DNA from: Acidimicrobiia bacterium
GTDB taxonomy: Bacteria; Actinomycetota; Acidimicrobiia; Acidimicrobiales; JANYDT01
Assembly: GCA_025359845.1 (NCBI GenBank)
Contig: JANYDT010000143.1
Location: 1-39,003, forward strand
Length of the DNA: 39,003 nucleotides
Direction: 5' to 3'
Each line of letters starts with the position of its first letter. The first letter of the stretch is position 1. Below, piece by piece: positions 9,312 to 36,879 of the stretch. The notes beneath the pieces were generated by a model, which saw only the letters and a program-made list of their open reading frames with translations, did no database searches and was not told the origin of the DNA. The position numbers were made by a program, and so were the translations under genes.

Positions 9312-9318
9312 ACCGCGG

Positions 9319-16990: not shown

Positions 16991-17269
16991 CTACCCCGGC
17001 TGGGTTGTGGAGAACTCTGCAAAGTCCTCGTTGTCGCCGCCGAGCAGGGTGAGCAGCTCGAGGGTGCGGCGGGCATCTTCTTCGTCGATGACGCTCATGG
17101 CGAAGCCGACATGGAGCAGCACCCATTCACCGACCGACAGGCCGATCCCGTCGTCATCGACGATGAGTGACACGTCGACGCGGCGGCGGACCCCGCTCAC
17201 CTCGACGACGGCTTGGCGGGTGCTTGCTTCGAGGAGTTCGATGACCTGGGCTGGCACGCCTACGCACAT
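16991..17269 (-). CDS. hypC: Hydrogenase maturation chaperone HypC
   Basis: A 92-residue HypC/HupF family chaperone that binds HypD and the large-subunit precursor during Fe(CN)2CO assembly. The invariant N-terminal MCVGVPAQV carries Cys2, which coordinates the iron once the Met is removed. The OB-like barrel follows (VVEVSGVRRRVDVSLI, then SVGEWVLLHVGFAMSVID). The length is normal. Its start overlaps the stop of the CooC-like gene by 10 bp and its stop is 7 bp from the SIS gene. It is upstream of hypD, so HypC and HypD are made from one transcript. Confidence 0.95.
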   Translation of the reverse strand: MCVGVPAQVIELLEASTRQAVVEVSGVRRRVDVSLIVDDDGIGLSVGEWVLLHVGFAMSVIDEEDARRTLELLTLLGGDNEDFAEFSTTQPG

Positions 17270-18075
17270 GGGTTTGAGCCCCTTTCCATTGTGGTGAAAG
17301 CGGAACGCGTTTCGTTGGGCGTCAGTTCGATCAGCGTCCGGACGGACGCATCGATCGCGTCAACGACGGCGCTGCCGGGGGCATGGTCGATGAGCGAGAG
17401 GCCGAGGCGGTCGGCCGCGGTTACGTCGTCGGACCACGGGACCTGGCCCCATAGCGGCAGCCCGAGCCCATCCACAAACTCTGAAACGGCCTCAGTATCG
17501 CCGGTGGACCTGAGCTTGTTGGCGATCACGCCGAGCTTCACGTTGGGCAACTCTCGAGCGAGGCGGGCCTGGAGTCGCACGGCCTCGAGCGACCGGTAGT
17601 AGGGCTCGGCCACGAGCACCAGCACATCGGCGTGGCGAGCGGTGCCGCGGCTGAGGTGTTCGGGAGAGGCTTCGAGATCCATGAACGTCCAATCGTTGGT
17701 ACGGGCCCCGAGTTCGGCCAGCAACGCCGAACCGGCGGCGTGGGCCGAGCAGAGGCAGCCTTCCTGGGCGTGGTCGGGCATGCCCATCCGGACGAGACGA
17801 ACACCGTCCGGTCCTGACACCGCATGCGCATCGAGCACATCGTCGAGCGGGCAATTCAACGCGGCGCCGTCGAAACGCCGCGAGACGATCGTGGTGGCGA
17901 GGATCGGCACCCGCGCCACCAGGACCAGATCGAATCCCAACGCCGGCGCCAGATTCGGGTTGGTGTCGGCATCGATGGCCACCACCCGGCGACCGGTTCG
18001 CGCCACCAGCCGAGCCGCGGTCGCGGCAATCGTTGTCTTGCCCGCGCCGCCCTTGCCCGCTATCGCAATCCTCAT
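17260..18075 (-). CDS. CooC-like nickel-handling P-loop ATPase
   Basis: A 271-residue MinD/CooC-type ATPase starting at ATG 18075. The deviant Walker A is GKGGAGKTT, switch I lies at DADTNPNLA, and Walker B-like DLEASPEHLSRG follows. The CxC motif typical of CooC is present as EGCLCSAH; in CooC1 these cysteines bind nickel or zinc at the dimer interface. The C-terminal part shows the usual AEPYYRSLEAV and VIANKLRS motifs. In a hydrogenase island it could deliver nickel or gate maturation; this is inferred. It overlaps padR by ATGA and hypC by 10 bp. It is one of four related ATPases in the window. Confidence 0.88.
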   Translation of the reverse strand: MRIAIAGKGGAGKTTIAATAARLVARTGRRVVAIDADTNPNLAPALGFDLVLVARVPILATTIVSRRFDGAALNCPLDDVLDAHAVSGPDGVRLVRMGMPDHAQEGCLCSAHAAGSALLAELGARTNDWTFMDLEASPEHLSRGTARHADVLVLVAEPYYRSLEAVRLQARLARELPNVKLGVIANKLRSTGDTEAVSEFVDGLGLPLWGQVPWSDDVTAADRLGLSLIDHAPGSAVVDAIDASVRTLIELTPNETRSAFTTMERGSNPCA

Positions 18076-19460: not shown

Positions 19461-19709
19461 TCAGGCTCCCTTGGCCGCGAGATGGAGCCGAGCGGCGGTG
19501 GCTGCGGCGGTGATGCGGCGGGCCGTCTTGTTGGTGGTGTCCACCGACCACAACGCCGCCGTATTGTCGCGACTGGCTTCGAGCGCGGCGAGGACGTTTC
19601 CGGCCTTCACTCCCGCTCTGTGGGCGCCGCGAATCATGAGCAGCAGCAAGGCGACCACGAGGGCTACGACGACCCCTCCGATCACCCATCCGACGATCCA
19701 TCCACCCAT
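19461..19709 (-). CDS. One-pass membrane microprotein
   Basis: An 82-residue protein with an N-terminal membrane helix (MGGWIVGWVIGGVVVALVVA) and a short basic soluble part. It is the first gene of the minus-strand maturation block and lies 142 bp from the divergent hydrogenase small-subunit gene. ATG 19709 is preceded by an AGGAG-like sequence (rc of CTCCTT). Membership of the same operon as hypC and hypD follows from the chain of overlaps downstream. Function unknown. Confidence 0.65.
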   Translation of the reverse strand: MGGWIVGWVIGGVVVALVVALLLLMIRGAHRAGVKAGNVLAALEASRDNTAALWSVDTTNKTARRITAAATAARLHLAAKGA

Positions 19710-19813
19710 CGAAATGCTCCTTCTAACGGTTCTTATCGGTCAGGCCGAGCGGCGCTCGGATCGTATCGTGCGCGCTGCGTCCCGGGGTTGTCGTGGCGCT
19801 TGTCACTCACTAT

Positions 19814-19826
19814 GTGTAGTCTACAC
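19814..19826. promoter_or_regulatory. Candidate operator palindrome in the divergent hydrogenase promoter region
   Basis: A perfect 13-nt palindrome GTGTAGTCTACAC, extending to a near-palindrome of 19 nt (19811-19829, TATGTGTAGTCTACACGTA) with one wobble pair. It lies 26 bp before the ATG of the small subunit, in the 142-bp region between two divergent operons. The outer TATGT...ACGTA pattern resembles PadR-type sites, and a PadR protein is encoded nearby. The link is an inference. Confidence 0.45.
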
Positions 19827-19851
19827 GTACCGTCTAGTGAAAGGCACGTCG

Positions 19852-21075
19852 ATGGCCCAGTACACCCTCGCCGATCCGGGCTACGTCGCCGAGATCGCAC
19901 CCAAGCGCCTGAGTACCGATCCCCACGATCCGTTCGCGCCGATCGGCATTCGCAGTCGCCTGCGGGAGCCCCGTAGCGACATTCTGAACCTGGGCCCGCT
20001 CGAGAAGGTCTTTTTGCTGTGGATCGTCGGTGCCTCCTGTGACGGCTGCTCTGTGGCGGTGACCGGGGCCACCCATCCCCGCCTCGAAGACCTTATGAAC
20101 GGGATCATTCCCGGCCTTCCGCGCGTCGAACTCGTGCACTGCGTGGTGTCGGTCGAATCGGGCCCGGAGTGGATCGAGAACCTTCGTATGGCCGCCGACG
20201 GTGAACTCGATGCCCCGTATCTGGTGTGTTGGGAGGGCTCGATCATGGACGAAACACTGTCGGGCAACGGGTACTTCATGGGGTTGGGCGAAGACCTCGC
20301 CACCGGGCGTCAGATCACCAGCCTCGAATGGCTCGACCGCCTTGCCCCCGGGGCCGCGGCCGTGATCGCAGTGGGTACGTGCGCTACATGGGGCGGGATT
20401 CCGGCGGCGGCCGGCAATCCGACCGGAGCGATGGGCGTGATGGACCATCTGGGTAAGGACTACCGATCGACGCTCGGTCTGCCGGTCATCAACGTCCCCG
20501 GATGCTCGCCGGTCGGCGACAACGTGCTCGAGACCGCGGCGGCGGCGTTGCTATTTCTCAACGGCATGGCCCCCCTCCCCGAGTTCGACGAACTCGGGCG
20601 GCCGGCCTGGCTGTTCACGGAGACCGTGCACCGCCACTGCCCGCGCGCCGGGTACTACGAAGAGGGTGTGTTCGCCGAGAAGTACGGCGACAAGGAGTGC
20701 CTTGTCGAGCTGGGTTGCTGGGGGCCCGTGGTGCAATGCAACATCTCTGAGCGCGGGGCCATCGACGGCCGGGGAGGGTGCATGAACATGGGGGGTATTT
20801 GCATCGGGTGCACCATGCCCGGCTTCCCCGACAAGTTCGCGCCGTTCTATGCCCCGGCTCCTGGCGCGTTCGTTTCGTCCACAACCTCGAAAAGCGTGGG
20901 CAGTTTCATTCGCCGATTCCGCGCTCTGTCGATGCGTGACAAGCAGGTATCGGCCCGCTGGGAGCACGACCGAGACCTCAGCAGCGGCTGGGCCCGGTAC
21001 CGCTCCCAGCCCCGCGGCGCCGAGAAACTCGCGCACCGCTTTTACGAACGCATCCAAGAATCCAACAAGTCCTAA
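19852..21075 (+). CDS. [NiFe]-hydrogenase small subunit (group 1-type, no Tat signal)
   Basis: A 407-residue small subunit carrying the iron-sulphur relay. The proximal cluster ligands are visible as CDGC (C63, C66), GTC (C177) and PGC (C218). Medial and distal ligands lie in TVHRHCPRAGYYE, LVELGCWGPVVQC and GGCMNMGGICIGCTMPGFP. The general sequence is close to the group 1h lineage, but group 1h enzymes usually have Asp at the second proximal position (CDGD); here it is Cys, so another subgroup such as 1f or 1l is possible. No Tat signal precedes residue 60. ATG 19852 has GAAAGG about 8 nt upstream. It pairs with the large subunit 11 bp downstream. Confidence 0.95.
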   Translation: MAQYTLADPGYVAEIAPKRLSTDPHDPFAPIGIRSRLREPRSDILNLGPLEKVFLLWIVGASCDGCSVAVTGATHPRLEDLMNGIIPGLPRVELVHCVVSVESGPEWIENLRMAADGELDAPYLVCWEGSIMDETLSGNGYFMGLGEDLATGRQITSLEWLDRLAPGAAAVIAVGTCATWGGIPAAAGNPTGAMGVMDHLGKDYRSTLGLPVINVPGCSPVGDNVLETAAAALLFLNGMAPLPEFDELGRPAWLFTETVHRHCPRAGYYEEGVFAEKYGDKECLVELGCWGPVVQCNISERGAIDGRGGCMNMGGICIGCTMPGFPDKFAPFYAPAPGAFVSSTTSKSVGSFIRRFRALSMRDKQVSARWEHDRDLSSGWARYRSQPRGAEKLAHRFYERIQESNKS

Positions 21076-21086: not shown

Positions 21087-22991
21087 ATGTGTTTCAAAAA
21101 CCTGCCCATCGAGTTTGACAACGGTGGAAACGCTCGACTGAAGGAGGGTTGGAAAGACCCCTATGCCTTCAGTCCCACGCCTTCGCGAAGCTACCTCGAG
21201 AAGTTGGCCGCGGGCGCCGCCGGGGCCGCTGGTCACGACCACGCCAAGGGTCCGCCCAGCCTGCGCGATTGGAGCATCGACCCCGTCACCCGCGTGGCCG
21301 GCGCACTCGCCATCCACACCGTGCTCGACCTCGAGAAGCGCACCGCGGTCGAAGCGCACTCGCTGGCGATGCTTTTTCGGGGCTACGAAATCATCCTCAA
21401 GGGACGTGACCCGCGTGATGCGATCGACATCTCCTCACGGGCCTGTGGCGTGTGTGGCGGCGTGCACTCCACGGTCTCATCGCTGGCCATCGAGCAGGCC
21501 TTCGGCATCATCCCGCCGCCGCTCGGCATCACCGTGCGCAATCTCGGCGAGGTGGCGGAGATGTTCTATGACCATCCGCTGCATCTGGGGCTACTGGCCG
21601 GTCCTGACTACTCCACGGCCATTGTGTCGGTCACGAACCCTGAGCTGATTCCCATCGCCGAGCGGACGCCGGCGAAGCATTCGAGGGTCCACGGCTTCTC
21701 GACCATCAAAGACATCATGGACGGGTTCAATCCGCTCGAGGGCAAGATCTATCTCGAAGCGATAGAGCAGACCCGCACCGCCCGCATCATGTGCACCCTC
21801 ATGTACGGCAAATACCCGCATCCCTCGACCCTGGTTCCGGGCGGCGTGTCGACGACCGTCTCGACCACAACGTTCAATGAATACTACTCGAACCTCGGTA
21901 AGATCTTCGATTACGCGAAACGCCTTTGCGGCATTTGGGATGACATTCTCGACTTCTTTCTCGAGGTGAATCCCGCATACGCGCTCGTGGGTGACCGGCC
22001 GGCAAACCTCATCCAGACCGGCATTTGGGACGACCCGACGGCCTACGACGCGACGTTCAAGAATTGCGACGCGTGGGGCAACCGCCGCTACTCCTCGCCC
22101 GGGGTCATCCTCGACGGCAAGCTCGTCACCACCGACCTGACCCGGATCAACATGGGTATCGAAGAATTTGTCACCCACTCGTTCTACGAGGACTGGGCCG
22201 AGAATGGCATGAAGCGGGGACGGTTTCCGACCGATCCGCTCGGCAACCCGCTATCGCCCTACCACATGTGGAACAAAGAGACGATCCCGCGCGCCGAGGG
22301 CAAGAACTTCAAGGAAAAGTACAGTTGGGACACCGCCCCGCGGTGGGACCGCATCGCCATGGAGAGCGGTGTCGTCGGGCGCATGTGGACCACGGCTCTG
22401 GCCGGTCACCTTCCCGACAATCCATTCATCTCCAGCACCGGTGATGGTCTGCGTATCGTCATGCCCCGCTACGAAATGCCCGAAATGGAGTTGTTCTGGA
22501 AGATCCCCGAGCGGCTCAACGCGTTCGAACGAAATCGCGGACGCGCCTACGGAGTGGCCTTCACGGCCGCCATCGGCATGATTTGTCTGCAGCAAGCCTT
22601 CGAATACTGGCGCAAGGGCGAAACGGCCGTGTCGACGACGTACTCCATCCCTAAAGACGAGCGTATGGCCGTCGGGTTTTGGGAGGCCGGTCGCGGCTAT
22701 CTCACCCATCATTTGCACATGGACAAAGGTCGTATCGTCAACTACCAGATAAATACACCGTCGACCTGGAACGCGTCGCCGCGCGATCCGTTCGACAATC
22801 CTGGACCCTACGAAGAAGCGATCGTCGGCACCCCCATACTGGAGAGCAACAGCGGTGACGACATCAAGGGAATCGACATCCTTCGCGCTATCCGTAGCTT
22901 TGACCCGTGCATGCCATGTACGACGCACATCGACACCGGTCATGGCATCATCACCCGCGAGGTCAACTCCTGCGGATGCACGCTGGAGTGA
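21087..22991 (+). CDS. [NiFe]-hydrogenase large subunit
   Basis: A 634-residue catalytic subunit. The L1 motif SRACGVCGGVHS (C120, C123) and the L2 motif DPCMPCTTH (C608, C611, H614) provide the four cysteines that bind the Ni-Fe site. After His614 there is a 20-residue extension ending in SCGCTLE, which is the sort of peptide removed by an M52 endopeptidase; a canonical one is encoded at 24797-25300. The extension contains two Cys, which is unusual for a discarded peptide. ATG 21087 is preceded by AGAGG. The length and the match to group 1h-like enzymes support an uptake hydrogenase possibly scavenging trace hydrogen. Confidence 0.95.
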   Translation: MCFKNLPIEFDNGGNARLKEGWKDPYAFSPTPSRSYLEKLAAGAAGAAGHDHAKGPPSLRDWSIDPVTRVAGALAIHTVLDLEKRTAVEAHSLAMLFRGYEIILKGRDPRDAIDISSRACGVCGGVHSTVSSLAIEQAFGIIPPPLGITVRNLGEVAEMFYDHPLHLGLLAGPDYSTAIVSVTNPELIPIAERTPAKHSRVHGFSTIKDIMDGFNPLEGKIYLEAIEQTRTARIMCTLMYGKYPHPSTLVPGGVSTTVSTTTFNEYYSNLGKIFDYAKRLCGIWDDILDFFLEVNPAYALVGDRPANLIQTGIWDDPTAYDATFKNCDAWGNRRYSSPGVILDGKLVTTDLTRINMGIEEFVTHSFYEDWAENGMKRGRFPTDPLGNPLSPYHMWNKETIPRAEGKNFKEKYSWDTAPRWDRIAMESGVVGRMWTTALAGHLPDNPFISSTGDGLRIVMPRYEMPEMELFWKIPERLNAFERNRGRAYGVAFTAAIGMICLQQAFEYWRKGETAVSTTYSIPKDERMAVGFWEAGRGYLTHHLHMDKGRIVNYQINTPSTWNASPRDPFDNPGPYEEAIVGTPILESNSGDDIKGIDILRAIRSFDPCMPCTTHIDTGHGIITREVNSCGCTLE

Positions 22992-23578
22992 TCCTTGTCG
23001 GTGGCATCGGCCTGCCGTGGCTTCGTGATCTGGACTACGGCACGCAGTGGATCGAACGGGTACGAAACGAGGAGTGGCCCGAAGGTGTACTGCTGGAGGA
23101 CCTTTCTTATGCGGCTCACCGGGTGTTGCACCGTTTGCAGGAACTCGATCTGACTCGGGTCGTGCTGGTGGGCGCGATGCCCCGCGACATCGATCCGCCC
23201 GGCACGATTCGGCGCTATCGCCTCGACCTTTCGCAGCCGCCCGTTGCCGAGGTGCACGATCGACTCAGCGAAGCGGTCATGGGTATCATCGACCTCGACC
23301 ACACGTTGGTCGTTTGTCGGCACTGGGGCGGGTTTCCGGCCGATACCGTCATCGTCGAAGTCGAGCCGGAGGATCGCGAATTCGGGCTCGGGTTCTCCGA
23401 CACGGTGGAGGGTACTGTGGCGATGGTGGCCACGATCGTCCGCCGGGAAGTGCAGCGACCAGCCGATGTCGATAGTGACGCACCGATGACCTCGCCGCCC
23501 AATGGCGCGATGCCACCGCCGAGCCCTTCGCCCAACGCGCTCCTGTTCCCGGCTCGTCCGACCGGCCCCGTCTCATGA
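22976..23578 (+). CDS. Degenerate M52-type hydrogenase maturation protease homologue
   Basis: About 200 residues, overlapping the end of the large-subunit gene. The N-terminus VILVGGIGLPWLRDLDYGTQ aligns with the GxGN...D(D/E)GxG opening of HyaD/HybD-type proteases, but the invariant Asn and the metal-binding acid-Gly-x-Gly are changed. Other parts keep the fold pattern (RVVLVGAMPRDIDPPGTIRR, then a helix about EVHDRLSEAVMGI). The C-terminal 45 residues are Pro-rich. It may be a non-catalytic chaperone for the large subunit or a regulator of the true protease. The start is either ATG 22976 or GTG 22988, the latter overlapping the stop as GTGA. Confidence 0.65.
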   Translation: MHAGVILVGGIGLPWLRDLDYGTQWIERVRNEEWPEGVLLEDLSYAAHRVLHRLQELDLTRVVLVGAMPRDIDPPGTIRRYRLDLSQPPVAEVHDRLSEAVMGIIDLDHTLVVCRHWGGFPADTVIVEVEPEDREFGLGFSDTVEGTVAMVATIVRREVQRPADVDSDAPMTSPPNGAMPPPSPSPNALLFPARPTGPVS

Positions 23579-24171
23579 CCATCTTGCCGATTTCCGGACC
23601 GGGGGAGCGGCTCCCCTTTGACGAAATCCTTCCTCGGATCGCGGCGTTGGCCGAATTGCTCAGTGCGCACCCTGATACGTCGGTCGTCGCCACCGCCGGC
23701 GAGCTGTTGGACTGGATCGACGTCTTCCATTCGCAGGGCCTCGGGACGCTGGTCGAGATGGTGCGGGAATGGCGAGGAGAGATCTTTCTCGACCATGTCG
23801 CGGCCCATCCGGTGGCCGGCCTGCTGTTGGCCGCGTACGGGCTCGGCCCTCAGATCGACGAGTCAGCGGCCGAGCGGGCCGTGCAGGCTGCGCTCACCGA
23901 GGTGCGGCCGTACCTGAACAGTCACGGCGGCGATATGGAGGTCGTTTCCATTGTCGACGGGGTCGTGCGGCTCCGTCTGCACGGCATGTGCGATGGCTGC
24001 TCAGCCGCATCGGCGACTCTCACGGGGCGCGTCGAAGGGGCCCTTCGGACGCACTGGCTGGATTTTCGGCGCCTCGACACCGAGGCTGCGACGGGCGCTC
24101 CGCACCCACCCCCCGACACCGCCCAGACAACGTTTGGGTTGCAGATCGGCCGTCGCGGTGGTCAACCATGA
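23575..24171 (+). CDS. NifU C-terminal-domain protein with N-terminal extension
   Basis: A 198-residue protein starting at an ATGA overlap with the preceding gene. Residues about 100-160 are a NifU C-terminal (Nfu) domain: VRPYLNSHGGDMEVVSI followed by the cluster-binding LHGMCDGCSAAS (C-x-x-C). Such domains carry a transient [4Fe-4S] cluster between subunits. The N-terminal 95 residues (helix-rich, with TAGELLDWIDVFHSQGLG) match no family I know. The gene is in the hydrogenase operon, so it likely supplies clusters to the small subunit. A Pro-rich tail ends the protein. Confidence 0.85.
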   Translation: MTILPISGPGERLPFDEILPRIAALAELLSAHPDTSVVATAGELLDWIDVFHSQGLGTLVEMVREWRGEIFLDHVAAHPVAGLLLAAYGLGPQIDESAAERAVQAALTEVRPYLNSHGGDMEVVSIVDGVVRLRLHGMCDGCSAASATLTGRVEGALRTHWLDFRRLDTEAATGAPHPPPDTAQTTFGLQIGRRGGQP

Positions 24172-24800
24172 CTGAGGCAACCGCGGTTGGGCCTGCCAAC
24201 ATCGGGCCCGGCTCTTCGGAGGTCGAAGATTTGTGCTTTCGACCGGAGATCGAAGATTTGTGCTTTCGACCGGAGATCGAAGATTTGTGCTTTCGACCGG
24301 AGGTCGAAGATTTAGCATTTCGAGCCAGGGCGCTGGCCCAGGCCCACGCGCTCACCCCCGCGGCAACGACGTACCGGCGCTGGCGGATCGACCGCGACGC
24401 GGCTGCCCATCCGGCGCCGGAGTTGGCATCGTGGGCGGCCACGGCGTTCCTCACCGGGTACTGCGTGCGTTGTGTCGAGCAGTCGTTCGCGGGTATCGAC
24501 AGTAATCCGGGTCGTCGCGAAGCCGCACCTGAGGATTGGCTCATTGCATGGGAGCGCGACGCCGGTGCGGTCGCCGACACTCTTCTGTCTAGGGCGGGCG
24601 CCACGCTGATGGATCGCGACCTGATCGCCGCGACGCTCGACAATGTGATCGGGCGCGAGATCGAGAAGCGTAACGAGCACGTGCGGGAGCATCTGTCACC
24701 CGATGATTGGGCGCAGTTCGAGACGTTCATCGCGTGGTGGGTCATGCATGGGTACGCCATCGGCGCCGTCGAGTCGGCCCGGCGCGCCGTCGTCGCGTGA
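24168..24800 (+). CDS. Hydrogenase-operon protein with tandem 9-residue Cys repeats
   Basis: A 210-residue protein starting at an ATGA overlap. Residues 18-53 consist of four tandem 9-residue units, three reading E(V/I)EDLCFRP and the last EVEDLAFRA. The three Cys are therefore spaced exactly nine residues apart, which could form a metal-binding ladder or simply reflect slippage. The rest (about 54-210) is helical with two more Cys in GYCVRCVEQSF and a Trp-rich C-terminal segment (WAQFETFIAWWVMHGYAIG). The open frame upstream of 24168 is a shadow of the NifU gene. I recognise no family. Coupling to neighbours by ATGA and GTGA supports a hydrogenase-related role. Confidence 0.65.
   Translation: MTEATAVGPANIGPGSSEVEDLCFRPEIEDLCFRPEIEDLCFRPEVEDLAFRARALAQAHALTPAATTYRRWRIDRDAAAHPAPELASWAATAFLTGYCVRCVEQSFAGIDSNPGRREAAPEDWLIAWERDAGAVADTLLSRAGATLMDRDLIAATLDNVIGREIEKRNEHVREHLSPDDWAQFETFIAWWVMHGYAIGAVESARRAVVA
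24219..24326 (+). repeat. Tandem 27-bp repeats, four copies
   Basis: Four head-to-tail copies of a 27-bp unit (GAGATCGAAGATTTGTGCTT then TCGACCG), the first three nearly identical and the last diverged. The unit length is a multiple of three, so the reading frame is kept. It encodes the Cys repeats of the protein at 24168-24800. Such an array may vary in copy number between strains. Confidence 0.9.
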
Positions 24801-25300
24801 GGATCCTGGTGGCCGGAGTCGGCAACGTTCTGCAAGGCGACGACGGGTTTGGCGTCGAAGTGGTCAGAGCGCTCATGACCCGTCCGCAGCCCGATGGTGT
24901 CGACATCACCGAGACCGGCATCGGCGGGATCGCGCTCGTGCAGGATCTCATGCTGGGCTATGACGCGTGCATTGTCGTCGACGCCGTCGATCGAAATCGG
25001 CCGCCGGGCACGGTGATGGTGATCGAGCCCGACATCATCGATGTGCATGCGCTCAGACCCGAGCAGCGTCATGATCTGCTGGCCGACATGCACCTCGCCA
25101 CGCCATCGCGGGCCCTCATGGTCGCTCGTGCCCTCGGCGTGCTCCCGGCCCGGAGCTGGATCGTGGGCTGTCAACCGGAAGAGATCGAGACGCTCCATAT
25201 CGGACTCAGCGCCACGGTGCAAGCCGCCGTTCCCGTGGCCGTTGCCGAGGTCGAGCGTTGCGTGGCCGAGCTTCGTTCGGGCTCAGCGTCGGTGGTTTGA
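24797..25300 (+). CDS. Hydrogenase maturation protease (M52 / HyaD-HybD family)
   Basis: A 167-residue endopeptidase that would remove the C-terminal extension of the large subunit once nickel is in place. The start is GTG 24797, overlapping the preceding stop as GTGA. Family motifs are ILVAGVGNVLQGDDGFGVEV (conserved Asn and the acid-Gly-x-Gly site), ETGIGGIALVQDLMLGYD, VVDAVDRNRPPGTV and the His-containing ADMHLATPSRALM. These supply the acidic and His nickel-sensing ligands, with Asp in place of the common Glu in the first motif. The length is normal. A degenerate relative is found at 22976-23578, so this is probably the active copy. Confidence 0.9.
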   Translation: MRILVAGVGNVLQGDDGFGVEVVRALMTRPQPDGVDITETGIGGIALVQDLMLGYDACIVVDAVDRNRPPGTVMVIEPDIIDVHALRPEQRHDLLADMHLATPSRALMVARALGVLPARSWIVGCQPEEIETLHIGLSATVQAAVPVAVAEVERCVAELRSGSASVV

Positions 25301-27980: not shown

Positions 27981-28712
27981 TCAGCTAGATACCAACCGCG
28001 ACGCGAGTCCTATCAGCGCGATGACGGCCGGGCTGTCGGGGGCGCTGTCGAGGGGCGACACACCGCGACGGTCGGCATCCATGATGGCTGGGTCGTGAGG
28101 GACGGCGACGATCTCACAGCCCGGTAGGCCGGCGGCGACGCGGTCCACGTCGGCCGCGCCGGTCACGCGATTGGCGACCACGATGAGGCGCCCCTGCTCT
28201 CGGGCTGTCGCCAACTCGACAGCGCGTTGTGCGACGTCGATGGAGCGGGGCGTGGGCTCGACGACGACCACGACAACGTCGATGCTCTGCGCATCGAGCC
28301 GGGTGAGGGTGCCGATCCCGGCTTCGAGGTCGGCGATGACGAGTACGTCACCGAAGTTGGCGGAGCCGAGCAACTGCTCGGCGGAAAGGCCACATCAGGG
28401 TCAGCCCGGTTCGGGGTTCTGGATCCGGCTCACCACCGCCAATCGCACTCCGTCGGGCCCGTCGGTACCGAAACGCTCGATCAGTTCGTCCCAGCTGGGC
28501 GCATGGCCAATGCCCTCTTCGTCGAGGGTCTGGCGCATGGTGGCGAGGCGTTCGGTCTCGTCGTCGCCGACGCCGAGCGAGATGCCGAGGTTGGGGTTCG
28601 TGTCGCAATCCAATGCCACGACCGAATGGCCTTGACGGGCCAGCGTCCGAGCGAGCACTCCCGAGGTCGTGGTCTTGCCCGACCCTCCTTTGCCGACGAC
28701 GGCGATTTTCAT
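27981..28712 (-). CDS. CooC-like ATPase with two in-frame UGA codons, candidate selenoprotein (Sec104, Sec106)
   Basis: Read through its two TGA codons, this is a 243-residue CooC/MinD-type ATPase starting at ATG 28712 (ATGA overlap with the preceding gene). Walker A is GKGGSGKTT, the Asp loop is CDTNPNLG, and DLEAGIGTLTRL follows in the expected place. The TGA codons (28403-28401, 28397-28395) give EPG-U-P-U-CGLSAEQLLG. In both paralogues of this window the same site, 12 residues after GVRL or GVTV, is CxC (CLC, CTC). There is no other stop, no frameshift and no loss of motifs. I read this as selenocysteine in the metal-binding CxC, but two independent nonsense mutations cannot be excluded. 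A stem-loop starts 12 nt downstream. Confidence 0.7.
28365..28382 (-). promoter_or_regulatory. Candidate bacterial SECIS stem-loop
   Basis: In the mRNA sense, GCCGAGC (28382-28376), AGUU (28375-28372) and GCUCGGC (28371-28365) form a perfect 7-bp stem with a four-base loop. The loop lies 19 nt after the second UGA and 25 nt after the first, and its second base is G. As I recall, bacterial SECIS models require a loop about 16-37 nt from the UGA with a G among the first two loop bases, so both UGA codons would fall within range of a single element. The stem is coding sequence (AEQLLG), as in fdhF. A three-pair extension (GGC/GCC) is possible below an internal loop. Confidence 0.55.
28395..28403 (-). 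other. Candidate UGA-Pro-UGA selenocysteine site
   Basis: Nine bases read TGA CCC TGA on the minus strand and are followed by TGT (Cys). The codons are in frame with the ATG at 28712 and with the rest of the ATPase to the stop at 27981. They replace exactly the two cysteines of a CxC metal site. If read as Sec, the motif is Sec-Pro-Sec-Cys. Confidence 0.65.
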
Positions 28713-29509
28713 GCCACTGCCTCCTTGATCGGATTTTGCGATTTGAGGGAACCATCGAACCGGGCTACGCAGTATTCGACGAGAGCGGCCACGGCGGCGA
28801 CAAAAGGACCATCCGGTGCACCGTCGAGCGGCGCCATACCGAGCCGGTCGGCCGACGCGACGCCCTCGTCGAAGGGCATCGCCCCCACGACGCGAAGCCC
28901 GGAGCGCTGGGCCACGGTGACGGTGTCGGCCGGTTCTGAAATCCGGTTGGCCACGGCCACAACGTGATGGTACGCCCACTTCGAGTCGCGCAGCGAGGAC
29001 AGGCGCCGCGCCGTCGCGAACGACTTGGCGGTGGGCTCGACCACGATTGCGATCACGTCCGCGTACTTGCTCCAGCCGGTCATCGGCTGACGGGTCCCGC
29101 CCGGTAGATCGCCGATGAGATCGAACCGATCGTGGGGAAGTTCGTCGAGGATCTGGCTCCACGCATGCTGGCCTCGGATTATGTCGCCCCAGTCGCCGCG
29201 CGTCTTGCCGAACGAGAGGAGCCGGACACCGTCAGCGCCAAGGGCGCCGTACGCCTGGAGAGCCGCCGTGGCGTCGAGCCCGGGCCGCAGTCGATAGCGA
29301 GGGCCCTCGGTCCCTTCGGCCTTCTCCACCACAGCGTCGTCGGGTATCGGCCGTTCGATGACGGGCAGGCCAAGCGCGAACGAGAGGCCGGGCATGGGAT
29401 CGGAGTCGACGGCCACGACGTCGCGACCGGTTCGGGCCAGCAGGCGGGCGAAGGTGCCGACGATGGTCGATTTGCCCGCACCCCCTTTGCCGACGAAGGC
29501 AATCCTCAT
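28709..29509 (-). CDS. CooC/MinD-like ATPase lacking the CxC motif
   Basis: A 266-residue P-loop ATPase starting at ATG 29509. It has GKGGAGKST, a DSDPMPGLS switch, a Walker B-like DLIGDLPGGTRQPMTGW, and VEPTAKSFATARRL followed by VAVANRIS, all typical of the group. At the position of CxC in its paralogues it has TRGDWGDII with no Cys. It therefore lacks the metal site and may be a partner or regulatory subunit of the adjacent Sec-CooC, with which it overlaps as ATGA. The next upstream gene is a DUF1059 protein 10 bp away. Cotranscription in a compact operon supports heteromeric or sequential action, which is an inference. Confidence 0.82.
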   Translation of the reverse strand: MRIAFVGKGGAGKSTIVGTFARLLARTGRDVVAVDSDPMPGLSFALGLPVIERPIPDDAVVEKAEGTEGPRYRLRPGLDATAALQAYGALGADGVRLLSFGKTRGDWGDIIRGQHAWSQILDELPHDRFDLIGDLPGGTRQPMTGWSKYADVIAIVVEPTAKSFATARRLSSLRDSKWAYHHVVAVANRISEPADTVTVAQRSGLRVVGAMPFDEGVASADRLGMAPLDGAPDGPFVAAVAALVEYCVARFDGSLKSQNPIKEAVA

Positions 29510-30273: not shown

Positions 30274-30377
30274 TGGAGTTCCTCTCGCATGTCGACAGAC
30301 TCGATGTGACAAGCGTAACCTATCTGTATGTCAATCGCATGTAGTGACGGTGGACGAACCGCAACGGTGGTGGCCGG

Positions 30378-31139
30378 GTGAAGCCGGGACTCAAAATCGG
30401 AGTCGTCGGAAAAGGAGGTGTCGGCAAGACCACCATCTCATCGCTGCTGGCCCGTAGCTTCGTCGGACGGGGTCTGCGGGTCGTGGCCGTCGACACCGAT
30501 TCCAACCCCAACCTCGCCATGTCTCTCGGCCTTGACCTCGCCGCCACCGAGGCCATACCGGTGCTGCCCCGGTCGCTGGTCGTCGGACGCCGGGGTGACT
30601 GTGGCGTCGACGAACTATTTGACACCTACGGGGTCGCCACGCCCTGCGGGGTAACGGTGCTGTCGGCATTGCGCGTCAACGAGGCGGGCGCGGGGTGCAC
30701 GTGCGGGGGTCACGCAACCGTCCGCAGTCTCCTCGGTGAAGCGCTCGAAGAACGCGCCGACGTGACAATTGTCGATATGGAGGCCGGCATCGAGCACCTC
30801 AGCCGCTCCGGGGGCACGCTGGCCCACGCCGACATCCTCGTGATCGTTATGGACCCGAGCCGCAAGTCGATCGTCACCGCGGCCCGTACGGTAGCGCTGG
30901 CCAACGAACTGGGCATCGCCCGCTGTGTGGCTATCGGTAACAAGGCGCAAGCTGACGATGAACAATTCTTCGCCGTGCAGTGCGACGAACTTGGCGTCGC
31001 GCTGGTGGGAGTCATTCCGGCCAGCGCCGCGGTTGCAGAGGCTGACCGAGACGGTCGCCAACTCGCCGGTGACGGGCCCGAAATCTGGGGCCATATCGAG
31101 CGGCTCGCCGATCTGATCGTCGAGCGGGTACCCGCCTGA
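30378..31139 (+). CDS. CooC-like ATPase with CxC motif
   Basis: A 253-residue P-loop ATPase starting at GTG 30378. It has Walker A GKGGVGKTT, the DTDSNPNLA switch, a Walker B-like DMEAGIEHLSRSG, and MDPSRKSIVTA then IGNKAQADDE. Its CxC motif is GAGCTCGGHATVRSLLG (C107, C109), aligned with the two UGA codons of the protein at 27981-28712. It is transcribed divergently from the microprotein/Sec-CooC operon with 104 bp between starts. It likely acts in nickel handling, but a partner enzyme cannot be named from this window. Confidence 0.88.
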   Translation: MKPGLKIGVVGKGGVGKTTISSLLARSFVGRGLRVVAVDTDSNPNLAMSLGLDLAATEAIPVLPRSLVVGRRGDCGVDELFDTYGVATPCGVTVLSALRVNEAGAGCTCGGHATVRSLLGEALEERADVTIVDMEAGIEHLSRSGGTLAHADILVIVMDPSRKSIVTAARTVALANELGIARCVAIGNKAQADDEQFFAVQCDELGVALVGVIPASAAVAEADRDGRQLAGDGPEIWGHIERLADLIVERVPA

Positions 31140-31192: not shown

Positions 31193-31273
31193 ATGATGGT
31201 CGGCCGGCGGTATCCGGTCGTTCCCACGATCCTGGCTAAGTGTCGTTTGCATATAGCGCGGAGGGCCCGCTGA
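31193..31273 (+). CDS. Possible short leader peptide ahead of the peptide-transporter operon
   Basis: A 26-codon frame with AAGGAG (31185-31190) two bases before its ATG 31193. The peptide MMVGRRYPVVPTILAKCRLH is basic and has no recognisable feature. It ends 53 bp before the TTG start of the substrate-binding protein. It could be a translated leader or chance; the only support is the Shine-Dalgarno sequence. Confidence 0.2.
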   Translation: MMVGRRYPVVPTILAKCRLHIARRAR

Positions 31274-31326
31274 CTATTGTGTTGCGAACGGGTCAATCGC
31301 TGACCACTCAACCGAAGGAGCACGCT

Positions 31327-33189
31327 TTGACGAAGTCCCGACCGACCGGCGCGAGACGCATTCATACGAGTGCCCGAGGTCGAGCACCTCGTCGGTTTCG
31401 CCGTAGTTTCGTAACCGCGGCCGCGATAGCGGCCTTCGTTGGCACTGCCTTGGCCGGCCCCTTGGCCGATCCAGCCAAGGCCGAGAATGCTACCGCCGAT
31501 AGTCTCACTATTGCCATTCCGGGCTACGAGAACAACCTCACACCGTTCACCGTGAGCTTCTTGGCCCTTCCAAACACGCACGACATGTTGACGCTCGTGT
31601 ACGACACCCTTTTCTGGTCTCAGAATGACAAATCACCAGAGCCGTGGCTGGCCGAATCGGCCACACCGTCACCAGATCGCAAACAGTGGATGGTCAAACT
31701 ACGTGCCGGAATCAAATGGCACGACGGAGTTCCATTCAATGCTGATGACGTGAAGTTTGCGTTTGACTACTACCGCGATAATCCCGGAGCCTCGGGGCGC
31801 TATGCCCATCATGCAGCCGACACTCCACCGTACGATCACGGCGAAGTGGTAGATCCGCTCACCGTTCGATTGTTCTTCAAGGCGGTCGCTCCGACCTTTC
31901 CAATTCTACCGGGCGCCGACCTGCCGATTATTCCGAAGCACATTTGGGAAAACATCAAAGAACCGACGAAATACACAGGACTTCCTATAGGCACCGGTCC
32001 GTACAAGATGACCGAAGCCCTGACCGACCAGGGCTATAAGCTCGAAGCCAACCCCGACTACTTCAAAGGCCGAGTGTTGGTGAAGAAACTCAACCTTGTC
32101 GTGGTGCGAGAACCAACTGTCGCCTTCGCCGCGTTGCGCGCCGGAGATGTTGACCATGTGGCTCGCAACGTCCCCAACGAGTTGGTCGACACCCTGACGG
32201 CGACCAAAGGGGTGAAGCTGCTCAAGGGCACGCGCAACGAGTCCGTCCAGATGCTGTTCAACGCCCGAAAGCCACCGTTCGACGATGCCAACGTGCGAAA
32301 GGCGATCAGTCTGGCCATCGATAATCAACCCATCGTCGCCAATGTCTTGTTGGGGCTTGGCCGTCCTGGAAACGACAATTTCATTCACCCGGACTCGCCG
32401 TGGGCGCTGGCCGGAACGAGCCACGAGCATGACTTGAACAAGAGCCGTCAACTTCTCGATGATGCTGGATTCGCGCTTAAGGGCAACACCCGCTTCAACT
32501 CCAAGGGTCTCAAAGTCGAGTTCGATCTTTTGGTCAATTCGTTCGAACCCCAGCAGCTGAGGGCCGCCCAGTTCATCGCTTCGCAGCTGCAGGCGGTGGG
32601 CGTGAAAGCGAGCGTCGAGCCGATCGATCCGGCTACATTGCGACAACGTCGAGCGGTCGTGGCCGGGAAGATTCCCGACTACGACGCCTATATGTCGATT
32701 CTCGAGAGCCATGCCCATGTCGACCCCGATGGTCTCTACTACTTCTTCCATTCTCCGGGAGATCGAGGTTTTGGCGCTTCGGTGACGGGCTACTCGAACC
32801 GCAAATTTGACGCTATCGCGGAGAAGGCTTCCATCGAGACCGACCTACCGACACGAGAGCAGGAGTTGTTCGAGCTTCAACGAATAATCATCGCCGATGC
32901 GCCACTGGTCACGTTGTATTACCCCGATGGCCTGTTCGCTACGCGCGACACCTACGATGGATGGTTCGCCGATCCAGGCCACGGCATTTTCACGAAGCGC
33001 AGCTTCATCGAAGGGGAGAACAAGTCCAAAGTGAATGTGGCCCCGTCAACCACGGCGAAGCCAGCTACGCCCACAACCGCTGCTCCCGTGACGACGGCCG
33101 TTCCGGTGACGACGGCCGCGGCGGCTGCTTCCAAGAGAAAGGCGAACGCAAAGACAAAGGTGAAGGCGAAGACAAAAGCCATTCACTAA
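31327..33189 (+). CDS. Peptide ABC transporter substrate-binding protein (SBP family 5)
   Basis: A 620-residue extracellular solute-binding protein of the DppA/OppA family. I choose TTG 31327 because GAAGGAG (31314-31320) lies 6 nt upstream. An N-terminal basic region and signal helix (about residues 27-48) precede the mature part. Family motifs are the lobe segments WMVKLRAGIKWHDGVPFNAD, LPIIPKHIWENI, FNARKPPFDDANVRKAISLA and YDAYMSILESHAHVDPDGLY. The C-terminus carries a Thr/Pro/Val spacer and a Lys-rich tail, which is unusual for SBPs and may bind the cell wall or membrane. No lipobox is apparent. Ligand cannot be told. It is the first gene of the transporter operon. Confidence 0.88.
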   Translation: MTKSRPTGARRIHTSARGRAPRRFRRSFVTAAAIAAFVGTALAGPLADPAKAENATADSLTIAIPGYENNLTPFTVSFLALPNTHDMLTLVYDTLFWSQNDKSPEPWLAESATPSPDRKQWMVKLRAGIKWHDGVPFNADDVKFAFDYYRDNPGASGRYAHHAADTPPYDHGEVVDPLTVRLFFKAVAPTFPILPGADLPIIPKHIWENIKEPTKYTGLPIGTGPYKMTEALTDQGYKLEANPDYFKGRVLVKKLNLVVVREPTVAFAALRAGDVDHVARNVPNELVDTLTATKGVKLLKGTRNESVQMLFNARKPPFDDANVRKAISLAIDNQPIVANVLLGLGRPGNDNFIHPDSPWALAGTSHEHDLNKSRQLLDDAGFALKGNTRFNSKGLKVEFDLLVNSFEPQQLRAAQFIASQLQAVGVKASVEPIDPATLRQRRAVVAGKIPDYDAYMSILESHAHVDPDGLYYFFHSPGDRGFGASVTGYSNRKFDAIAEKASIETDLPTREQELFELQRIIIADAPLVTLYYPDGLFATRDTYDGWFADPGHGIFTKRSFIEGENKSKVNVAPSTTAKPATPTTAAPVTTAVPVTTAAAAASKRKANAKTKVKAKTKAIH

Positions 33190-33197: not shown

Positions 33198-34181
33198 ATG
33201 TCGCTCCGATATGTGGCCCGCTGCACGGCTCGGAGCTTTTCGGTGCTGTTCGTGGCTATTGTGGTCAACTTCACGCTCCCCCGGTTGGCGCCGGGGAGCG
33301 CCGCGGACTACCTGTTACCTCCGGAATCGGCGGTGGCCCGCAGCGCCGGGGAGCGCCTAAAGGTGTTGCGCCAATTCGGTCTTCAGCGATCGCTCCCCGA
33401 GCAATTCGTGCGCTATGTCGTCCGTCTCGCTCATGGCGATCTGTTGGTTTCGGTTCGCTATGGCCGCCCTGTGCGAACCTTGTTGGCCGAGCGCCTGCCG
33501 TGGACCCTTCTGCTCGTGGGTTCGTCGCTCATCGTCGCGTTGCTCATGGGGTCGGCGATCGGCTTCGCGGCAGCGTGGCGAAGGGGATCGCCACGAGACA
33601 TCGGTTCGATGGTCGTTGTCATCCTCTTCGATTCGATGCCCGTGTTCTTCGTCGGCATGATGTTGCTCTTTTTCTTCTCGGTGAAGCTACGTTGGCTACC
33701 TCTGTTCGGTGCCGTCAATTTCGTTCACCGTGCAAGCGGATTCGCGGCGGTGCGCGAGGTGCTCCGACGCCTTATTCTTCCGGCGGGCACCTTGGTGTTG
33801 GCCCAAATCGGTTCGGTCTACCTTGCCGCCCGCTCGGCGATGGTCGGTGAACTTCGAGAGGACTACGTAACGTTCGCCGTGGCCAAAGGACTTCCACCCC
33901 GTGCCGTTCGTGCTCACGCTCGGCGCAACAGTTTGCTACCGGTCGTCACCATCGGGCTCGTGAGCCTCGGGACACTGGTCGGCGGGGCCACCGTGGTGGA
34001 GACCGTCTTCTCGTACCCCGGCGTCGGCCGGTTGGTGTACGACAGCGTGCTGGCCCGTGACTATCCGGTGATCCAGGGGGCGTTCTTCGTGCTCGCCGTC
34101 ACCGTGATTCTGTGCAATCTCGTGGCCGACTTGATCACGCCGTTCGTCGATCGCCGCGCCATGCGGAGATCAGAATCATGA
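33198..34181 (+). CDS. Peptide ABC transporter permease (DppB-type)
   Basis: A 327-residue inner-membrane permease with about six membrane helices. The first helix lies at RSFSVLFVAIVVNFTLPRLA. The conserved coupling-helix (EAA) region is in YVTFAVAKGLPPRAVRAHA, followed by the invariant NSLLPVVTIG segment and ETVFSYPGVGRLVYDSVLARD, all typical of DppB/OppB. The start at ATG 33198 is 8 bp after the SBP stop, and the stop overlaps the next gene as ATGA. It pairs with the permease half of the fusion protein at 34178. Confidence 0.9.
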   Translation: MSLRYVARCTARSFSVLFVAIVVNFTLPRLAPGSAADYLLPPESAVARSAGERLKVLRQFGLQRSLPEQFVRYVVRLAHGDLLVSVRYGRPVRTLLAERLPWTLLLVGSSLIVALLMGSAIGFAAAWRRGSPRDIGSMVVVILFDSMPVFFVGMMLLFFFSVKLRWLPLFGAVNFVHRASGFAAVREVLRRLILPAGTLVLAQIGSVYLAARSAMVGELREDYVTFAVAKGLPPRAVRAHARRNSLLPVVTIGLVSLGTLVGGATVVETVFSYPGVGRLVYDSVLARDYPVIQGAFFVLAVTVILCNLVADLITPFVDRRAMRRSES

Positions 34182-36103
34182 CCGAGCCGATCTTGCTCGA
34201 CCTGGCGCCGGGCTCTTTGTCGGCTCCGAAACCGACCTCCGAGACGCCTCGACGCGACCGCCTTGCCGGACCGGCAAAAGTCGGGCTTGGTCTTGTCGGG
34301 TTGGTCGTGATCATGGCCGCGGCGGCACCTATCGTGGCCCGGAGCGACCCGAGTAAGACGGGTATTCCTTTCGGCCATCCGAGCAGATCTCACCTCCTTG
34401 GTACTGACGACGTCGGACACGATTTGTGGGCGCAGCTGTTGTACGGAGCCCGCGTGTCGGTCTTGGTGGGTTTTGTGACCGCGTGCATTTCGCTGGCCAT
34501 CGCGCTCTTCGTTTCGCTCGTTGCGGTGTACCGACGGGGATGGTTCGAGACGATCGCCTTTCGGGTGGTCGACCTCACGCTGGTGCTGCCCTTTCTGATC
34601 CTGGTGATCGTGGTGGCGGTGTTCGTCGGCCGTTCCACCTTCGCAACCATTCTCGTGTTGAGCTGCGTCTTGTGGGCCCGCCCGGCGCGCGTCCTGAGGG
34701 CCACCGCGATGAGACTGCGCGAAGCGCCGCACGTCATGGTGGCGATGGCCAGTGGCGCTCCCGGGGGATGGGTCATTCGCCGCCATCTTCTGGCTCGGAT
34801 TGCGCCGCAGGCCGTCGCCCAGTTCGTCCGACTGGTGAACTTCGCCGTGTTGTCCGAGGCCTCACTGGCCTTCCTCGGGCTCGGTGATCCTGGCCGGATC
34901 AGCTGGGGTACCACCCTCTATTTTGCCAACGCCCGCAGCGCGTTTCTGACTGGCGCTTGGATGTGGTGGATTCTGCCGCCGGCGGTTGGCCTGACGTTGT
35001 TGTCATCGGGTCTGGCGTTGATCGGCTTCGGCGTCGAAGAACGTGCTGACCCCCGCCTGCGGTCCTCGCCCATCGGTGGGCAAAGTCTTCGCCGTGTACG
35101 AAGCCAGCACGGTGAGGTGATCGCTCGCCGAAGTGCTGACGTCGGGCGGCGACCTCTTGGCGCGGTGGAATTGAGCGGGCTGGTCGTCGAGTACGGACTC
35201 GACGAACCGAGGCTGCGCGCCGTCGACAACGTCGCGCTGACGGTCGAGGCGAGTTGGGTCGTCGGGCTCATCGGCGAGTCGGGATGCGGGAAGTCGAGCT
35301 TGGCTTCGGCGCTGATGGGGCTCATCGCCCGCCCGGGCCGAGTTCTTGAAGGGCGCCTGGTAGTTGACGAAGCGGAGTACGACTTGTCGCAGCGAGAGTC
35401 GGTTGCGACCCTTCGGGGCCGGACGCTGGGCTTGATACCACAGAGTTCTATGAACGCCTTGAACCCTTCGCAGCGGGTTTTCGATCAAGTCGTCGAGGCG
35501 GCCGCGATAGTTGGTTCAGCCGCGAGCGTTCGCGCCCGCGCTCACGATGCGCTGGCCGCGCTTCGAATCACGACCGCCGAACGCCATCGATTTCCCCATG
35601 AGCTCTCGGGCGGCCAGCGTCAGCGAGTCGTGATCGCCATGGCGATGGTCAACTACCCGCGCTTGGTGATCGCCGACGAAGCCACATCGGGCCTCGATCC
35701 GTTGACGCAAATAGAGGTTCTGCGCGAGCTGACGCAACGCTGTGCCGCACAGTCGTCGGGTTTGCTCTTGATCTCGCATGACCTGCCGCTCGTCGCCAAA
35801 GTGGCCGACCGAATCGCGGTGATGTACGCCGGGCGGATTGTTGAAGAAGGGCCCACGACAACAATCTTGAACGAGCCCATTCACCCGTACACGATCGCCT
35901 TGCTCGGCGCCTACCCGCGACTCAACGGCGGCGCCACCGCGCAGTCCATCGCCGGCGATGTTCCCGACCTTCGCCGACTGCCGCCGGGCTGTGCGTTTCA
36001 GCCGCGGTGCGCGTACGCCGAAGCCCGGTGCGCAAACCACGTTCCCGAGCTCGTGGTAACCGGCCCTCATGCGGTGGCCTGCATGGTGCGAGGGCAGCCG
36101 TGA
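34178..36103 (+). CDS. Fused peptide ABC transporter permease and ATPase (DppC-DppD)
   Basis: A 641-residue natural fusion. Residues about 1-290 are a DppC-type permease (LLGTDDVGHDLWAQLLYGAR; EAA region at ARPARVLRATAMRLREAPH; FLGLGDPGRISWG). Residues about 325-641 are a DppD-type ATPase with Walker A GESGCGKSS, Q-loop GLIPQSSMNALNP, signature LSGGQRQR and Walker B LVIADEATSGLDP, ending with the CAFQPRCAYAEARC segment that marks oligopeptide-transporter ATPases. No stop or frameshift separates the parts, so this is a real fusion unless an assembly error removed the gap. Starts at ATG 34178 (ATGA overlap), ends overlapping the next gene as GTGA. Confidence 0.9.
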   Translation: MTEPILLDLAPGSLSAPKPTSETPRRDRLAGPAKVGLGLVGLVVIMAAAAPIVARSDPSKTGIPFGHPSRSHLLGTDDVGHDLWAQLLYGARVSVLVGFVTACISLAIALFVSLVAVYRRGWFETIAFRVVDLTLVLPFLILVIVVAVFVGRSTFATILVLSCVLWARPARVLRATAMRLREAPHVMVAMASGAPGGWVIRRHLLARIAPQAVAQFVRLVNFAVLSEASLAFLGLGDPGRISWGTTLYFANARSAFLTGAWMWWILPPAVGLTLLSSGLALIGFGVEERADPRLRSSPIGGQSLRRVRSQHGEVIARRSADVGRRPLGAVELSGLVVEYGLDEPRLRAVDNVALTVEASWVVGLIGESGCGKSSLASALMGLIARPGRVLEGRLVVDEAEYDLSQRESVATLRGRTLGLIPQSSMNALNPSQRVFDQVVEAAAIVGSAASVRARAHDALAALRITTAERHRFPHELSGGQRQRVVIAMAMVNYPRLVIADEATSGLDPLTQIEVLRELTQRCAAQSSGLLLISHDLPLVAKVADRIAVMYAGRIVEEGPTTTILNEPIHPYTIALLGAYPRLNGGATAQSIAGDVPDLRRLPPGCAFQPRCAYAEARCANHVPELVVTGPHAVACMVRGQP

Positions 36104-36879
36104 ATGCACCCGTCGCACCCACGCCGGTACTGCATTTCGAGTCGGTGTCGCGAACATTCCAGCAAGGTGGCAAGCAAACCGTTCATGCCCTTGTCGAGGT
36201 GTCGTTCGGAGTGCATCCACAAGAGATTGTGGCGGTCATCGGACCCAGCGGGGCGGGCAAGACCACACTGGCCAACATTGCCCTGGGACTCGATCGGCCG
36301 ACGGGCGGGACGCTGCGATGGGGGGGCGATGACGTGCGAGGGTTGCGGCGCGGTGCGCTGAGGCAGGCGAAGCGGGCCAACCGCCTCGTGACTCAGGACC
36401 CGTTCGGGGCGTTGCATCCGGGCATGACGGTGTTCGAGGTAGTGAGCGAGCCATTGCGGGGGTCGGCGCTCGACCGGGCGGCATGGGCCCCGACCGTGAA
36501 CTCGGCGCTCGAGAGTGTCGGTCTCGACCCGTCCGCGTACGGGCGCCGTTACCCTCACCAACTCTCCGGAGGACAACGACAGCGAGTGGCTGTCGCCCGC
36601 GCCACGGTGGGTGCACCGAGATTGATCGTGGCCGATGAGCCCACGTCGATGCTCGACGTATCGGTGCGCGCCAGTATCAATTCGCTTCTCCGCAACATCC
36701 GCGACGAGCGCGCCGTCGGCATCCTCCTCATCACTCACGATCTCGGAATAGCCCGATACATCGCTGACCGCGTCGTGGTTCTCGACCGAGGCCGCGTCGT
36801 CGAGAGCGGCCCCGCGGATCAGGTGTTCTCCCAGCCGGAGGCGCCAATGACCCGGGCGCTCATCAATGCGGTTTTGTAG
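36100..36879 (+). CDS. Peptide ABC transporter ATP-binding protein (DppF-type)
   Basis: A 259-residue ABC ATPase starting at GTG 36100. Walker A is GPSGAGKTT, the Q-loop is NRLVTQDPFGALHPGM, the signature is LSGGQRQR, Walker B is LIVADEPTSMLD and the switch His is in LLITHDLGIARY. It is the second ATPase of the peptide transporter and would form the heterodimeric motor with the ATPase half of the fusion protein. All core motifs are intact. It is the last gene of the operon. Confidence 0.9.
   Translation: MNAPVAPTPVLHFESVSRTFQQGGKQTVHALVEVSFGVHPQEIVAVIGPSGAGKTTLANIALGLDRPTGGTLRWGGDDVRGLRRGALRQAKRANRLVTQDPFGALHPGMTVFEVVSEPLRGSALDRAAWAPTVNSALESVGLDPSAYGRRYPHQLSGGQRQRVAVARATVGAPRLIVADEPTSMLDVSVRASINSLLRNIRDERAVGILLITHDLGIARYIADRVVVLDRGRVVESGPADQVFSQPEAPMTRALINAVL

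Follow-up and report, generated by a model that had tools for sequence, protein, structure and literature searches.

A CooC-type ATPase gene with UGA codons at both metal-ligand positions, a predicted double selenoprotein linked to [NiFe] hydrogenases in Actinomycetota

Contig JANYDT010000143.1 of an Acidimicrobiia bacterium (assembly GCA_025359845.1), analysed from position 1 to position 39,003 and referred to below as the window, carries a gene for a CooC-type ATPase (27981..28712, minus strand) with two internal UGA codons. The question raised by this locus is whether the gene is broken or encodes a protein with two selenocysteine (Sec) residues and, in the latter case, what such a protein would do. 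Our analysis indicates that the product is very likely a double selenoprotein (Sec104-Pro-Sec106-Cys107), which is predicted to bind nickel via its selenolates and, at the expense of ATP, to load this metal into the [NiFe] hydrogenase encoded nearby.

The reading frame runs from ATG at 28712-28710 to the terminal TGA at 27983-27981 and predicts 243 residues, with matches to the Pfam families CbiA, AAA_31 and ParA. It is open except for the internal TGA triplets of codon 104 (28403-28401) and codon 106 (28397-28395), and the motif reads NPEPG-U-P-U-C-GLS (U, UGA codon). Its Walker A motif, which is of the deviant type (GKGGSGKTT), is undamaged. An initial annotation of this DNA had described a frame broken by these two TGAs only, with an intact Walker A motif, and had claimed that the TGAs replace the cysteines of a CxC motif. 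Our translations bear out each of these points: the motif is CLC in the window paralogue at 17260-18075 and CTC in that at 30378-31139, and the gap of 12 residues between GVRL/GVTV and the motif is the same in all three proteins. Codons 104 and 106 occupy the columns of Cys112 and Cys114 of CooC1, respectively.

If the UGAs were genuine stops, the gene would be a pseudogene, contain an error of sequencing, or encode two halves produced as separate proteins. UGA does terminate both this gene and its upstream neighbour, and standard open reading frames (ORFs) lie on either side of the motif (27981-28373 and 28401-29162). Standard gene finders would split such genes, and the family is therefore probably under-counted. 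However, both parts evolve as coding DNA. The GC content by codon position is similar around the motif (0.68/0.50/0.81 upstream, 0.76/0.49/0.83 downstream), and the excess of third-position substitutions is alike on both sides of the UGAs in 9/9 in-register orthologue pairs (ten pairs were compared; L052/L056 was out of register and was dropped).

A protein search of 99 genomes of the same order, including the genome of origin, yielded 11 close orthologues, of which the other ten are 63-69% identical to the query. Two TGA codons are present in seven of the 11, one in three and none in one. A single scan of GTDB species genomes by short peptide words, which was not exhaustive, added 30 orthologues from Acidimicrobiia, Nocardioidaceae, Geodermatophilaceae, Pseudonocardiaceae, Sporichthyaceae and other Actinomycetota. 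Among the resulting 41 orthologues the motif is UxU in 22, CxU in ten, Cx(UAG) in four and CxC in five, so that 36 carry a recoded stop; these are related sequences and not independent events, which lessens the weight of the counts. Codon 104 is UGA in 22/41 and Cys in 19/41, codon 106 is UGA in 32/41, UAG in 4/41 and Cys in 5/41, and Sec at 104 combined with Cys at 106 was found in none of the 41. The best 120 listed of at least 1361 database homologues (7998 candidates scored) all have Cys at both positions, followed by Cys107; UGA read-throughs are invisible in a protein database, but other residues could have appeared and none did among the 120 listed. In an alignment of 46 rows both columns are invariant, with 32 natural Cys and 14 rows in which TGA was deliberately read as C. 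The initial annotation had pointed to these columns as a check, and Cys, UGA or, in the clade with a CUA tRNA-Sec, UAG was seen in them, with no scattered stops.

Stop positions were then tallied over 162 CooC-type coding stretches, obtained as tblastn matches with 150 or more aligned query residues in the window and in loci L050-L126 and L186-L200. They contain 74 in-frame stops: 70 at the CxC motif, four in the final 12 codons and none elsewhere. This placement is far beyond chance; the initial annotation had pointed out that random decay would need to strike both cysteines and spare the rest. A sequencing error at the UGAs is very unlikely because identical codons recur in many independent assemblies.

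A change of the stop codon itself provides a further argument. Four Geodermatophilaceae orthologues, those of Geodermatophilus chilensis (L107), Blastococcus saxobsidens (L108), Modestobacter sp. (L110) and Blastococcus mobilis (L112), have TAG as codon 106 and contain no further internal stop. The tRNA-Sec genes of these four genomes (L135, L134, L133 and L132) have the anticodon CUA and score 65-67 bits with the Rfam model; ARAGORN names them tRNA-Pyl. All six tRNA-Sec checked from UGA-type genomes (L001, L127-L131) have the anticodon UCA. The Sec codon and the anticodon of tRNA-Sec change together, and this natural UGA to UAG swap offers a ready-made genetic argument; since named Geodermatophilaceae strains carry the gene, the proposal is open to direct testing. 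UAG-coded Sec was reportedly first described by Mukai and co-workers in 2016. In Geodermatophilaceae it has been published for formate dehydrogenase (FDH), a UGSC protein and AhpC, in a paper that cites an earlier report of UAG-coded Sec (PMC5330540). These proteins would share the CUA tRNA-Sec system with the ATPase described here; no CooC-type ATPase is among the selenoproteins named in section 17 of that paper.

A SECIS-like hairpin (selenocysteine insertion sequence), GCCGAGC-AGUU-GCUCGGC, lies at 28365..28382 on the minus strand. In the bacterial SECIS model the apical loop is located 16-37 nt downstream of the UGA, with a G within the first two loop positions (PMC13188914, section 5). 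The AGUU loop agrees with this rule for both codons, being 19 nt past UGA106 and 25 nt past UGA104, and the same holds in 36/36 Sec-type orthologues. All 36 have the form [GCC/GCU/CCU/CCC]GAGC-AGUU-GCUC[GGC/AGC/GGG/GGA]; the full 7-bp stem is present in 32, and the remaining four have 6/7 pairs, with the outermost pair missing. The loop requires the Leu codon TTG, which is used in 36/36 UGA/UAG genes vs 7.6% of Leu codons elsewhere in 40 genes. Under synonymous resampling, stem and loop together arise by chance in 0.25-0.7% of cases, and they are retained in one of four Cys genes (L109, the remaining Cys locus, has a truncated start and was excluded). Across 34 distinct hairpin sequences 98.3% of cells are paired, and two of the seven stem pairs vary on both sides (G-C/C-G, and C-G/U-A with U-G). 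In a test weakened by the kinship of the sequences, three measures were above all 500 shuffles and all slid versions: the covariation score, the fraction of paired cells and the number of cells in which both sides differ. SelB would recognise this hairpin, and one hairpin may serve both UGAs.

Since the orthologue series, the UAG codon with its CUA tRNA-Sec and the hairpin all argue against it, the possibility of a pseudogene, an error or a split gene was rejected as very improbable. A suppressor that decodes the UGAs as cysteine or another standard residue would suit the cysteines of the 120 listed database relatives, but it leaves both the UAG/CUA pairing and the hairpin unexplained and is hardly conceivable. 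It is very likely, judging from these sequence data, that both UGAs are translated as Sec.

The genome of origin (4.69 Mb, 254 contigs, 93% complete) is equipped for this. All four genes that the initial annotation had named for a search, selA, selB, selC and selD, were found: a tRNA-Sec with the anticodon UCA (TCA in DNA; 68 bits), a selA-selB tandem on contig C4, and selD, which itself contains one in-frame TGA in the context GAG-U-ACKLGG. SelD is already known as a selenoprotein (PMC13188914). The tRNA and Rfam scans (gathering cut-off) of the window gave no matches. A tRNA-Sec above the cut-off was found in 18 of the 21 Sec-type genomes tested. Among the relatives of the same order it is present in 59/99 overall and in 9/10 with a Sec-type gene, which is a weak test of association. 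The selenoprotein reading of the initial annotation is supported by the sel genes, the Cys/UGA/UAG columns and the conserved SECIS-like hairpin. Of the conditions that it had named as refuting this reading, neither a lack of Sec machinery nor different amino acids or scattered stops in close relatives were observed.

As to the function of the ATPase, its best solved sequence relative is CooC1 of Carboxydothermus hydrogenoformans (3kje; E 2.9e-14, the next at 4.1e-8), the nickel-inserting ATPase of nickel-containing carbon monoxide dehydrogenase (Ni-CODH). The features of the CooC-type ATPase family are present: a deviant Walker A motif (GKGGxGKTT in both proteins), the MinD/SIMIBI fold and CxC at the CooC1 columns. 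The two proteins differ in the motif, Cys-Tyr-Cys in CooC1 and Sec-Pro-Sec-Cys here, and are 24-25% identical in structural alignments. Cys112 and Cys114 of CooC1 bind Zn at the dimer interface, a site for which Ni competes (PMC6006190). Should the ATPase dimerise like CooC1, the homodimer interface would present four selenium ligands, and the metal bound there may be nickel.

The genomic context of CooC1 is CODH, whereas that of the window ATPase is hydrogenase. This was examined in a survey of 23 carrier genomes (the 11 same-order carriers plus 12 from the set of 30 found in GTDB). No match to Ni-CODH (TIGR01702) was obtained in any of the 23, and a role in CO-dehydrogenase maturation was rejected. 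The earlier label of CooC-like ATPase is therefore retained, but not in the sense of a CO-dehydrogenase CooC. A hydrogenase match was found in 23/23 carriers, 22 of them above the cut-off, and 29/41 loci have a hydrogenase, Hyp or protease gene in the locus stretch (gene clusters were labelled from one representative each, and HypE from AIRS domains). Among the same-order genomes, PF00374 is above the cut-off in 11/11 carriers vs 34/99 relatives overall (2e-6 if independent, which related genomes are not); a stricter subset of 21, chosen by eye, gave 3e-9, a value not relied on.

The nickel-insertion pair HypA/HypB has the same task as that predicted for the window ATPase. CooC and HypB have their P-loop architecture in common, and in both the metal site is linked to the bound nucleotide and the oligomeric state (PMC9164220). 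HypB belongs to the G3E GTPases, however, and no HypB model matches the window ATPase, TIGR00073 being absent from its 22 NCBIfam matches. Both HypA and HypB are absent or under the cut-off in 18/23 carriers, including the named Geodermatophilaceae strains G099, G100 and G102, and the same five genomes have both. In three of these five (G000, G046, G101), HypA/HypB lie at most ~10 kb from a hydrogenase on a contig where no CooC gene was found, although G101 itself was not searched for all CooC genes. The economical reading, which we consider likely from the gene content of these genomes, would be that CooC-type ATPases replaced HypA/HypB for nickel insertion, and the client may be the neighbouring [NiFe] hydrogenase.

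Several observations weigh against the proposal. Three of the 21 Sec-type genomes (G030, G106 and G108) have no tRNA-Sec over the cut-off; G106 and G108 are metagenome assemblies and G030 is a draft of 310 contigs. The Cys-type genome G046 has a tRNA-Sec, and the Cys gene L090 retains the complete hairpin. Five of the seven hairpin pairs are invariant, and in two of the five shuffle-test measures the result was matched, namely by 113/500 shuffles for the pairs changed on both sides and by 500/500 for the count of pair types. The structural model is least reliable at the motif loop (mean predicted local distance difference test score, pLDDT, of 64 for residues 101-110), and Foldseek places FleN and MinD above CooC1, which is at rank 8. 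The CooC of R. rubrum is stated to have no part in maturing the CO-induced hydrogenase, and nickel binding is described as unclear in some CooC proteins (both PMC6006190). No hydrogenase or Hyp gene is present in the stretch of 12/41 loci; eight of these belong to genomes of the same order (L050-L056, L058), and some of the 12 are short contigs. The genome of origin itself has HypA/HypB, on contig C102 and ~9 kb away from a different hydrogenase. A NifU-domain gene in the window (23575..24171, plus strand; PF01106) is also compatible with iron-sulfur (Fe-S) delivery and leaves room for an Fe-S role.

Such a role would make the protein a selenoprotein of another kind, an Fe-S carrier or reductase in which the Sec/Cys pairs of two subunits bridge a cluster for use by the small subunit of the hydrogenase. 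Proteins of the Mrp/NBP35 or NifH type hold an Fe-S cluster between two subunits in this way. The NCBIfam models NifH, BchL and MrpORP score far under their cut-offs, while Fer4_NifH and ParA/NUBPL, which are broad Pfam models, exceed theirs. This alternative is unlikely given that CooC1 is the best solved sequence relative, that the Sec columns are those of the CooC1 Zn/Ni cysteines, that nickel-type transporter genes are nearby, and that HypA and HypB are missing in most carriers.

Single UGA codons, predicted to encode Sec, also stand at the same motif in other subfamilies of the wider CooC superfamily. The relatives of the paralogue at 30378..31139 (plus strand, CTC) include four from other genomes with UTC, and a Thermoleophilaceae copy (L114) related to the paralogue at 17260..18075 (minus strand, CLC) has ULC. 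A neighbouring clade has G-U-T-G/W in 6/6 members, and the divergent copy L066 has a single UGA. In a 160-row tree the UGA-bearing subfamilies are on separate branches, with approximately ten Sec/non-Sec changes and gain not distinguishable from loss; column 106 was misregistered for the other subfamilies in this alignment, and their motifs were taken from translations and tblastn stretches. L066 (G029:C10:72701-73417) keeps the loop codons CAG TTG CTC and has its UGA in PGUGGLS; the second Cys position and Cys107 are lost.

The single Sec of the neighbouring clade, in which the second Cys is lost, would not be explained by a two-ligand metal site. It speaks for Sec serving redox chemistry instead, as a selenenylsulfide or diselenide switch by which the release of metal would be regulated or the site shielded from oxygen. 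The three neighbouring chalcogens U104, U106 and C107 point the same way, and uncharacterised selenoproteins are mostly thought to be redox proteins (PMC13188914). The position is nevertheless a structurally known metal site, and redox chemistry and metal binding are compatible; we regard a redox role in place of nickel binding as rather improbable.

The nickel-insertion proposal can be extended. Two Sec-Pro-Sec-Cys subunits might enclose nickel as a tetraselenolate, Ni(Se)4, for ATP-powered delivery to [NiFe] hydrogenases, replacing HypA/HypB in whole Actinomycetota lineages, with one SECIS for both codons; several branches of the CooC superfamily would have exchanged Cys and Sec at this metal site. 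This full version is offered only tentatively. A possible partner subunit is a fourth window paralogue, not listed in the initial annotation, which lies immediately upstream of the Sec gene (28709..29509, minus strand). It lacks CxC and keeps Walker A, and its stop codon shares bases with the start codon of the Sec gene (ATGA). A relative is directly upstream in 39/41 loci, the exceptions being L109, cut at its start, and L050. A heterodimer with this protein as partner subunit of the Sec ATPase is possible on the basis of gene order.

CooC and Sec are each already known separately; new, as far as the literature searched goes, are the occurrence of Sec in the two ligand columns of a CooC-type metal site, and the link to hydrogenase in the absence of HypA/HypB. 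The initial annotation knew of no described CooC selenoprotein, and we found no report of one in the open-access literature searched (most subscription journals were outside the search), nor any CooC, MinD or ParA-type ATPase in the 2026 table of 119 prokaryotic selenoprotein families and subfamilies (PMC13188914, Table 1). Sec in metal handling occurs in other families, such as the CobW-related selenoprotein (NF041053) and the SO_0444 Cu/Zn transporter (UxC) (PMC13188914). In [NiFeSe] hydrogenases a selenolate likewise lies near nickel in hydrogen metabolism, but there Sec is in the catalytic subunit, whereas in the window the catalytic motif is all Cys and Sec would be in an accessory ATPase. 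If true, our reading adds a new family of selenoproteins in which Sec takes both ligand positions of a site for metal delivery, while most Sec is thought to be redox-active, and points to hydrogenase nickel insertion independent of HypA/HypB.

The hydrogenase genes of the window are on the plus strand. The small subunit is encoded at 19471..21075, with the true start probably within the ORF, and the large subunit at 21087..22991. The best solved match of the latter is 5aa5 HofG (E 2.5e-148), which we take to be an actinobacterial type [NiFe] hydrogenase; the type found in the window is presumably the one linked to atmospheric hydrogen uptake. A Se-containing catalytic subunit was rejected, since the C-terminal motif of the large subunit is DPCMPC. 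On the same strand follow a hydrogenase maturation protease (22907..23578; TIGR00072, just above the cut-off) and a HycI-type hydrogenase maturation protease (24707..25300; PF01750). HypD (14663..15895, profile match) and HypC (16991..17269, PF01455) are encoded on the minus strand. On the other side of the ATPase genes, profile matches identified a family 5 solute-binding protein of the nickel/peptide type (31240..33189), a nickel/peptide-type ABC permease fused to an ATPase (34112..36103) and a nickel/peptide-type ABC ATPase (36007..36879), all on the plus strand.

Some further features were noted. An inverted repeat with 18-base arms (GTTCATGTAGCAGTTGGG) at 27921-27972 lies between the convergent ends of the selenoprotein gene and the gene at 27168-27911, and looks like a terminator common to both. 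The latter gene encodes a protein resembling the biotin ligase C-terminus (PF02237 just below the cut-off), with relatives in 9/41 loci including this one. An ORF of 95 aa at 30028-30312 (minus strand), with no Pfam match, belongs to a cluster found near CooC genes in 12/41 loci. The opposite end of the window (1037-12039) carries genes for a phage-type tail sheath, an HSP70/FGE-sulfatase fusion, an animal-haem-peroxidase-like protein and a LuxR-type ATPase regulator.
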